Positions 49,071 to 51,522 of a DNA stretch of 64,000 nt are shown in pieces. The notes under the pieces are model-generated. The model saw nothing but the letters and a program-made list of their open reading frames with translations, searched no databases and was not told the origin of the DNA. Location of the stretch: positions 310,001-374,000 of the forward strand of contig NZ_PXYJ01000003.1 of assembly GCF_003012815.1 (NCBI RefSeq), in the 5' to 3' direction. The position numbers and the translations under genes were made by a program. This DNA comes from Allosphingosinicella vermicomposti (lineage in GTDB: Bacteria; Pseudomonadota; Alphaproteobacteria; Sphingomonadales; Sphingomonadaceae). Numbering within the stretch: the first letter of the stretch is position 1; each line of letters begins with the position of its first letter.

Positions 49071-50261
49071 CTAGCCGTGGTGGACGTTCCCGTTGGCGAC
49101 AGTCAACAGAGTCGCGTCCCCACCGAGCCCTTCGAACAAAGCCCTTTCGGTGCCCGTCATCCAGACCTGACCCCCGGCGCTTTCAAGACGGGCGAACAAG
49201 GCCGTCCGCCGCGATGGATCTAGATGCGCCGCCACTTCGTCCAGCAGCAGGATGGGGCGCCGCCCCGCCCGGTCGGCGACGAGATCGGCATGAGCGAGGA
49301 TGATCGAGAGCAGGAGCGCCTTTTGCTCGCCGGTCGAGCAATGTTCGGCAGCCTGCCCCTTGGCGAGATGGGTGACGAGGAGGTCGGTGCGGTGGGGCCC
49401 GGCAAGCGTCCGCCCCGCCGCGCCGTCGCGCCCGCGCGCCGTCTTGAGTTCGGCCCGGAAGGCGCTTTCGGCGTCCTCAGCGGGGCGCCAGCCGCCGAAG
49501 GCGAGCCCGGCGCGGGCGAACGGCCCGTCGGCTTGCGCCGCCAGCCTTTCGCCGAGCATTGCCAAGGCCCGCTCCCGCGCCTCGGCAATGCGTGCGCCAT
49601 GTTCGGCCATTCCCGCTTCCAGAGCCGAGAGCCATGCGGGGTCGGCGGTTTCGGGTTCAGCGAGCAATTTATTGCGCGCCCGCATCGCCGCTTCGTAGCG
49701 GGCGGCGTGGGTGGCGTGGGACGGTTCGAGCGCCAGCACGAGCCGGTCGAAGAAGCGGCGGCGGCCTGAGGCGCCTTCGGTGAACAGGCGGTCCATGGCC
49801 GGGGTGAGCCAGAGGATTGAGAGCCATTCGCCGAGCGCGGTCGCGGAGCCGGTGGCCCCGTTGATGCGGACTTGGCGGCGCTCGGGCGCGGTGGCAAGGA
49901 TGCCGGTGCCGATGTCGATGCCCCCCTCCCCCTCAGGGGAGTGGCTGGGGGTGGGGACGGTCGGCGCCATAAGGCTCGCCTCTTCGAGGCTCGCACCCAC
50001 CCCTCGATCCCCTCCCTTGAAAGGGGGGGGAGGTAGGAGGCGCGCCGCCACGCTGAAGCCCCCAGCACCTGCCTGCCGGGCCATGTCGGACAGGCTCGCG
50101 CCCCGGAGCCCCCGTCCAGGGGTCAGCAGCGACACCGCCTCCAGAATGTTCGTTTTGCCCGCGCCATTCTCGCCGGTCAGCACGACAAGGCCCGGTCCCG
50201 GCGACAGGACGGCGTCGGCATAAGAGCGGAAATCGGTGAGGGAGAGGCGGGAGAGGTGCAC
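49071..50261 (-). CDS. recF: DNA replication and repair protein RecF (with in-frame insertion)
   Basis: A 396-residue SMC-like ATPase. Walker A is [10 protein letters not shown] (residues 29-38) and the C-terminal Walker B region is [11 protein letters not shown], with the signature STGEQKALL. RecF loads RecA at gapped DNA with RecO and RecR. The protein is longer than usual because residues about 75-114 are encoded by an inserted palindromic repeat (49921-50040): a Pro/Gly/Ser-rich stretch unlike the rest of RecF. The frame is kept. The normal sequence resumes at IDIGTG and ERRQVRING. Confidence 0.93.
49921..50040. repeat. Palindromic repeat inserted inside recF, family E
   Basis: Two inverted G/C-rich arms: CCCCTCCCCCTCAGGGGAG with GGGGGTGGGG on one side, and CACCCACCCCTCGATCCCCTC with AAAGGGGGGGG on the other. 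These are like the intergenic repeats of sphingomonads, but this copy lies wholly within the recF reading frame, adding about 40 codons without a stop. Confidence 0.75.
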
Positions 50262-50314: not shown

Positions 50315-50400
50315 GACCGTCATCCTGACCTTGTTCCAGGATCCATGCCGGGCATCGCGCCTGACGCTGGAATGGATGCTGAAACAAGTTCAGCATGACC
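50315..50400. repeat. Palindromic intergenic repeat, family D
   Basis: Contains GTCATCCTGACCTTGTTCCAGGATCC and, inverted, TGGATGCTGAAACAAGTTCAGCATGAC, the CATCCTGAACTTGTTTCAG type of element. It lies between the dnaN stop and recF start. Confidence 0.85.
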
Positions 50401-50412
50401 AATGCGGATGGC

Positions 50413-51522
50413 TTACACCCGCATCGGCATCAGGACGTAGAGCGCCGGCGCGTGGTCGTTTTCGCGGAGGAGGGTCGGCGCAGCGGCGTCTGCGAGATGG
50501 ACTTCCACCGTGTCGCCTTCGATCTGGCCGAGAATGTCGAGCAGATAGCGGGCGTTGAAACCGATCTCGAAGCCTTGCGCATTATAGTCGCCGGGCACTT
50601 CTTCGGCCGCCGTGCCGTTTTCGGGACTAGTCACTGAGAGAGTGACCTTGTCGCGATCGAGCGCCATTTTCACGGCGCGGGTTTTTTCGCTGGCAATGGT
50701 GGCGACACGATCGACGCCCTGCATCAGGCTCTTCGGATCGATCTTCAAGAGCTTGTCATTCGCGGTCGGGATGACGCGGGTGTAATCCGGGAACGTGCCG
50801 TCGATCAGCTTCGAGGTGAGGATCGCATTGCCCAGGCCGAAGCGGATCTTCGATTCCGATAGCGAAACCTGCACGGTGCCGTCCACTTCGTCGAGAAGCT
50901 TGCGAAGTTCCGTCACGCACTTACGCGGGATGATGACGTCAGGCATTCCGGCGGCGCCTTCCGGGCGCGGCACGGTGACGCGGGCGAGGCGGTGGCCGTC
51001 GGTCGCGGCGGCCTTCAGCACCGGCTGCGCGTCGTCCGAAACGTGAATGAAGATGCCATTGAGATAATAACGCGTTTCTTCGGTCGAAATGGCGAAGCGC
51101 GTCTTGTCGATGATCTGGCGGAGCGTCGCGGCGGGAAGCTCGAACTGGGTCGGCAAATCGCCTTCCGCGATCACCGGGAAATCGTCGCGCGGCAGGGTCG
51201 CGAGATTGAAGCGGGCGCGGCCCGCGACGACTTGCATCTTGCCTTCGGCGGCGGTGATTTCGACCTGTGCGCCTTCGGGCAGCTTGCGGGCGATGTCGAA
51301 GAGCGTGTGCGCGGACACGGTGGTCGCGCCGGGCTGGCTGACATTGGCTTCGACGATTTCGTTGACCTGAAGATCAAGATCGGTCGCCATCAGGCGCAGG
51401 CCGCCTTCCGTCGCATCAATCAAAACATTGGAGAGAATGGGGATCGTGTTTCTGCGTTCCACCACGGATTGCACATGGCCAAGGCTCTTGAGCAAGGTGG
51501 CCCGTTCGATCGTCGCCTTCAT
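50413..51522 (-). CDS. dnaN: DNA polymerase III sliding clamp (beta subunit)
   Basis: A 369-residue ring-forming clamp with three repeated domains. The start MKATIERATLLKSLGHVQSVVERRNTIPILSN and the GLRLMATDLDLQVNEIV block are typical, and the protein ends VLMPMRV, the usual P-M-R C-terminus. Length is standard. It is upstream of recF on the same strand; dnaA is not in the window. Confidence 0.98.
   Translation of the reverse strand: MKATIERATLLKSLGHVQSVVERRNTIPILSNVLIDATEGGLRLMATDLDLQVNEIVEANVSQPGATTVSAHTLFDIARKLPEGAQVEITAAEGKMQVVAGRARFNLATLPRDDFPVIAEGDLPTQFELPAATLRQIIDKTRFAISTEETRYYLNGIFIHVSDDAQPVLKAAATDGHRLARVTVPRPEGAAGMPDVIIPRKCVTELRKLLDEVDGTVQVSLSESKIRFGLGNAILTSKLIDGTFPDYTRVIPTANDKLLKIDPKSLMQGVDRVATIASEKTRAVKMALDRDKVTLSVTSPENGTAAEEVPGDYNAQGFEIGFNARYLLDILGQIEGDTVEVHLADAAAPTLLRENDHAPALYVLMPMRV

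Follow-up and report, generated by a model that had tools for sequence, protein, structure and literature searches.

In-frame palindromic repeats at one RecF loop in sphingomonads, apparently acquired on several occasions

In Allosphingosinicella vermicomposti, one copy of a dispersed palindromic repeat lies in frame within recF, where it falls on the tip of a RecF beta-hairpin, and related repeats are present at the same position in nine clades. Similar repeats seem to have entered this RecF loop about seven to nine separate times in the sphingomonads. Palindromes lying in frame within genes are already known, from the Rickettsia RPEs and from REPs in repair genes; what is new here is the recurrence of insertions at one loop. 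The pattern is very probably the result of neutral spread of repeats into flexible loops, where they are putatively translated as linkers.

In the window, by which we mean the whole stretch of 64,000 nucleotides analysed, recF (49071..50261, (-) strand) lies downstream of dnaN (50413-51522) and encodes 396 residues with the inserted element, as judged from relative matches and alignment. The frame is open throughout 49071-50261, insert included. The protein scores 233 bits with NCBIfam TIGR00611 (recf), above the cut-off of 172, and the match is split into two stretches. A RecF match was present in 97 of 98 relative genomes, and many of these matches stop at about residue 75 and restart at about residue 113. 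Alignment with the relatives and the match breaks place the insert at codons 76-114 (39 codons; 49920..50036, (-) strand), with the extra residues flanked by FSVAARL and IDIGTG. Two residues occupy this site in L009, the nearest relative that lacks the insert, giving the window recF a net gain of 37 codons. The initial annotation had proposed a repeat lying in frame inside recF, and this is confirmed by the position of the insert, the open frame and a copy elsewhere at 80% identity.

The recF element is G/C-rich, about 117 bp long, and consists of two hairpins in inverted arrangement. In the coding sense, the first hairpin (50010..50033, (-) strand) runs C-rich arm, loop, G-rich arm, and the second is at 49923..49944 on the same strand. 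Besides the two hairpins there is an internal pair, GGGGTGGG / CCCACCCC, at 49948-49955 and 49996-50003. By motif comparison, GGGGTGGG (coding sense, 49996..50003, (-) strand) is the would-be third strand of a first triplex-type motif, and CCCCACCC (coding sense, 49948..49955, (-) strand) is its counterpart in a second. The inverted repeat described initially therefore holds as regards its inverted G/C-rich arms, but the element is not one simple inverted repeat. With up to three mismatches, CCCTCCCNTNNANGGGAGGG occurs at three sites in the 64 kb, two of them within the insert, against 0.32 expected, and none of 100 shuffles reached three sites. The window insert has a moderate folding z-score of -3.1, and of 32 windows taken elsewhere in recF two were equally stable; this moderate stability reflects the divergence of the hairpin arms. 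As sole evidence, hairpin stability is too weak for the window copy, so we used copies elsewhere and empty sites. Between dnaN and recF, at 50318-50399, there is also an inverted palindrome pair (CGTCATCCTGACCTTGTTCCAGGATCCA and a similar one facing it), which resembles the CGTC-type REP dimers described in PMC3733652 and belongs to a different family from the recF insert.

Elsewhere in the genome (G000), a copy of the insert is intergenic, between glyS and the next gene (G000:C1:627392-627505; 80% over 114 bp, E 6.4e-21). Aligned to this copy downstream of glyS, the recF element extends over 49925..50041 on the (-) strand (G000:C3:359925-360041; 80% identity, E 3.8e-21). A pair at C2:281903-282009 matches more weakly, and at a looser threshold 25 matches to the element are listed in G000. 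Each element combines two oppositely oriented hairpins. In this genome, all eight single motifs of the CTCGATG/CTTGATG type fall outside ORFs of at least 150 aa. One repeat, at G000:C1:13699-13802, gives a transporter-like ORF its last residues and its stop.

The RecF loop was read in 110 rows, namely the window and 109 of 110 loci, L026 being unreadable by the loop motif. We kept 103 distinct rows after dropping the window's own duplicate, the fragment L137 and five identical rows. Between two fixed columns, the loop has 31-63 residues in 18 of the 103 rows, 22 in one, and 5-15 in the other 84; a near-uniform loop of 5-6 residues occurs in 59. All insertions of at least 17 residues in the 110-row alignment are at this one site, and elsewhere in RecF there are only smaller ones, of 16 residues (L010) and of 10 residues (two identical rows). 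An ancestral RecF loop that only looks repetitive could draw on the length variation that is also seen among loops of up to 22-25 residues, but the element copies at other places in the genome and the empty sites in most relatives reduce its probability to almost nothing, and we rejected it on those copies and on the 84 short-loop rows. The same rows uphold the initial view of the segment as an insertion. Most relatives are without it, its residues are unconserved where it is present, and similar repeats do occur elsewhere in the same genome.

On a RecF tree built without the loop, the 18 long-loop rows form nine clades and require nine changes (bootstrap range 9-9), seven of them forced by well-supported branches, where a change can be a loss as well as a gain and three changes could equal one gain and two losses. 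A looser cut, adding the 22-residue row for a total of 19, gave ten changes, eight of them forced. The clades are the window with L007; L008; L062 (S. hylomeconis); L065 (a Parasphingopyxis MAG); L072 (S. pruni); L084 (MAG-45); L094 (NFR15); L104 (S. kyeonggiensis); and nine rows of the S. faeni/aurantiaca group. The inserts of the relatives belong to several repeat subtypes. The hairpin core is read in frame 0 in L084, in frame 1 in the S. faeni group, L072, L094 and the second hairpin of L104, and in frame 2 in L007, L008 and L062. We read most of the changes as gains because the empty loops are short and alike, the subtypes differ, and the hairpin core occurs in three frames.

In the window, L007, L008, L084, L095, L104 and L120, the recF insert has a clear match in its own genome, and in L072 and L094 the match is modest. 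For L062 and L065, each compared with two own loci, the own-genome match was poor, and another species matched better. In L084 the insert is a 168-nt composite containing a nested hairpin; the RNase R gene of that genome has a second copy of the composite, 81% identical over 168 nt. Nested palindromes, with a second hairpin unit inside the first element, were seen in the recF loops of L072 and L084, and also in L325.

A single ancestral recF insertion, precisely lost in the majority of lineages and made uniform with the resident repeats of each genome, would agree with the tendency of subtypes to match those repeats and with the presence of several insert clades within related Sphingomonas; loss of a palindrome is also plausible, and one gain with two losses can mimic three changes. 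We nevertheless regard this history as unlikely. It would need many exact losses, each restoring the near-uniform 5-6 residue loop, and conversion alone would not shift the frame of the hairpin core, which across the clades lies in all three. Filled and empty sisters are also close, L104 standing beside the empty L079 (distance 0.113) and L083, and L084 beside the empty L086 (distance 0.211).

The RecF sequence around the insert is under strong purifying selection and the insert itself is not. In seven pairs, dN/dS was 0.59-1.91 for the insert and 0.053-0.095 for the rest of RecF, the insert values coming from short sequences whose alignment is partly uncertain. An AlphaFold model of the window RecF (61-row alignment) has a mean pLDDT of 91.5, falling to about 49-54 at residues 81-110, and places the insert at a beta-hairpin tip joining strands 69-76 and 115-122. 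Compared with the PDB, the model matches RecF entries best. A decaying recF, or an insert skipped in translation, is very improbable, even if strong hairpins might in principle stall ribosomes: the flanks are under strong purifying selection, and all 110 RecF rows are stop-free across the loop, which a skipped segment need not be. In the pair formed by the window and L007, the insert DNA diverges more slowly than a plain neutral reading predicts, with 19 of 114 insert sites different (0.167) against 0.47 of the synonymous sites outside. This slow divergence may be caused by constraint at the DNA level, by conversion, or by chance.

Such elements recur not only in the same RecF loop but also in the uvrA and glyS loops of the same genome, which goes beyond the initial annotation. 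In G000, in-frame elements are found in glyS (C1:625976-626094) and uvrA (C4:96538-96654), and in the sister genome G008 the same uvrA loop carries another repeat subtype (L198). Among 30 glyS loci, the loop has at least 23 residues in 18 and at most 12 in 12; a stem of at least 8 bp occurs in 13 of the 18 long loops and is unmatched by any same-gene window in 7 of those 13. Among 30 uvrA loci, 14 loops are long, 5 are short and 11 were unreadable by the script (L240 from G008 included), and 8 of the 14 long loops have a stem of at least 9 bp, never equalled in control windows. Another type of peptide, with VRPERSRG ... STTLGTNEV and ASTGSARTG, occurs in the glyS loops of L214 and L217 and the uvrA loops of L244-L246. 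It looks like a candidate second dispersed repeat family in the same loops, with short stems.

Further hosts were found in a survey of genomes that had been chosen through their recF inserts, and the share of repair genes among the hosts is for that reason biased. The S. aurantiaca genome (G106) has 39 places with the CCCCTCCC motif, of which the 38 besides recF were tested by script; the convincing in-frame cases are recF, leuS, hrpB and a biotin-carboxylase gene. We did not count a further in-gene candidate in G106 (L281), which would need a family scan to be convincing. In G101, where 18 of the first 20 places listed were tested, the in-frame cases are leuS, RNase R and recF, and the leuS insert site is identical in G101 and G106. 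An element lies in frame at one common site of mfd in G006 and S. echinoides, another in ileS of G109, and two more in an XrtA-type glycosyltransferase gene and a GspE-like gene of G107; the names mfd, RNase R, GspE-like and biotin-carboxylase come from best hits that stay under the curated cut-off, in part because the loci are truncated. The ileS of G109 (L152) seems to have two separate proline/glycine-rich inserts, with the CCCCTCCC motif in the first only.

The recurrence of repair genes among these hosts (recF, uvrA, mfd) raises the question of whether the insert has been put to use, either altering RecF activity or, through an mRNA hairpin, changing the amount of RecF. Predicted hairpins of -58 to -123 kcal/mol in most long loops, and the lower divergence of the window/L007 insert relative to synonymous sites, would fit such a role. 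We consider it improbable, since the insert dN/dS is near or above 1, any reading frame serves, and the hosts also include leuS, ileS, glyS, hrpB, RNase R and biotin carboxylase, quite apart from the biased choice of genomes. Stable folding (z of -2 or lower) is found in 15 of the 18 long loops and not in L094, L104 and L118, some loops having decayed; that of L118 has no hairpin core.

The repeats fit a published intrastrand-triplex motif type and are predicted, from their letters, to belong to it. The motif CCCCTCCC-N3-7-GGGAGGGG-N2-5-GGGGNGGG is present in 16 of 18 genomes, and its reversed control in none of the 18. Among genomes with the CCCCTCCC-type motif, the window's genome has the fewest copies (10) and G101 the most (226). 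Seventeen of the 18 genomes have a longer-stem type (control 0), and G013, whose recF is empty, has neither type. The window recF copy matches the triplex motif only with mismatches. At 193 of 195 distinct CCCCTCCC-type sites, which are not independent events, the third-run letter facing stem A is A or T, a preference that matches what purine-type triplexes allow. The uvrA copy at G000:C4:96538-96573 fits, letter by letter, the TM(ECO) pattern CCCTCNCCC-N3-6-GGGNGAGGG-N3-GGGNGAGGG as published in PMC4666352 (Holder et al. 2015). That paper gives TM(ECO) the same order of C-rich arm, loop, G-rich arm, short gap and second G-rich run. The elements here differ from TM(ECO) as described there: most have a stem of 8 nt and are arranged as inverted pairs, and the recF copy has diverged. 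Neither "in-frame" nor "Sphing" occurs in the text of PMC4666352.

As to mobility, PF01797 (Y1_Tnp, RAYT type) was not found in G000 and was found in 2 of 17 genomes; 14 motif-bearing genomes had no PF01797 match, all these counts applying to assemblies that may be incomplete. A RAYT-driven REP is unsupported on these grounds. Inspection of the element sequences by eye revealed no GTAG/CGTC tag beside the stems, and comparison of filled and empty sites by eye revealed no target-site duplication, the flanks having diverged. The 42 complete elements have 143 of 252 frames open (0.567), equal to shuffled sequence (0.569), with no sign of selection for coding capacity.

Neutral spread into flexible loops would proceed as follows. 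Repeats would multiply as non-coding elements, with some copies landing in genes and, judging by the PF01797 search, with no need for a RAYT transposase encoded in the host genome. Being G/C-rich and poor in stops, they would have about 57% of frames open from composition alone, so that translation can continue through a copy whose net length is divisible by three. Selection would then remove harmful insertions and leave those in flexible surface loops, where the inserted peptide would be a disordered, essentially neutral linker, decaying afterwards. The tolerated loop insertion offered as one possibility in the initial annotation is the best-fitting reading.

The comparison with Rickettsia made initially is apt insofar as the element, like the RPEs, is a palindrome of about 100-150 bp in frame within a conserved gene. 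RPEs are described, in PMC10969869 and PMC2229807, as palindromes of about 100-150 bp lying in frame in unrelated conserved genes and encoding a conserved peptide in one ORF. By these accounts the present elements differ in having no fixed reading frame: all three frames are used, and their openness equals that of shuffled sequence. Plain RPE membership was rejected on this frame use. The accompanying idea that coding palindromes are rare outside Rickettsia is too strong. PMC3733652 describes REP palindromic dimers in frame in repair genes (uvrA included), tRNA-synthetase genes and others, also in the sphingomonads S. alaskensis and E. litoralis, with one site, in recB, common to two species. 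These GTAG/CGTC REPs resemble the recF insert as in-frame palindromic dimers in repair genes, and the recF element falls outside their definition, of which the GTAG/CGTC tag is a feature. The terms "recF" and "mfd" are absent from the main text of PMC3733652. Enterobacterial and neisserial elements also count against rarity: ERIC/RU-1, RU-3 and the 107-bp Correia element are, in PMC2229807, small non-autonomous repeats (MITEs) fused in frame into ORFs, and the element here is like them in being a non-autonomous repeat that becomes part of ORFs. The same paper gives TA termini or target duplications for most MITE families; none were seen here by eye. We found no report of in-frame repeats of the present kind in Sphingomonas in the literature searched.

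PMC3733652 also proposes mutator effects of REPs in repair genes. A related but quite doubtful reading is that the loops of RecF, UvrA, Mfd, GlyS and LeuS are standing acceptor sites that repeatedly capture triplex-forming palindromes faster than neutral tolerance would allow, either because the elements are attracted there or because altered repair proteins are favoured, as a natural mutator switch. RecF would be its clearest case, with seven to nine captures in one beta-hairpin and three frames.

The RecF loop provides a natural experiment with replicates, showing how non-coding repeats turn into protein: a single loop is involved, its fold is known, sister species with and without the insert exist, and there are several repeat subtypes and three frames. 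It adds to the known in-frame palindromes a repeat type that the literature searched does not describe as coding. The proposal that repeats modify repair proteins, as put forward in PMC3733652, becomes directly testable through pairs of RecF, UvrA and Mfd proteins. Annotators should also be aware that stretches rich in proline and glycine in the proteins of sphingomonads may derive from repeat DNA.
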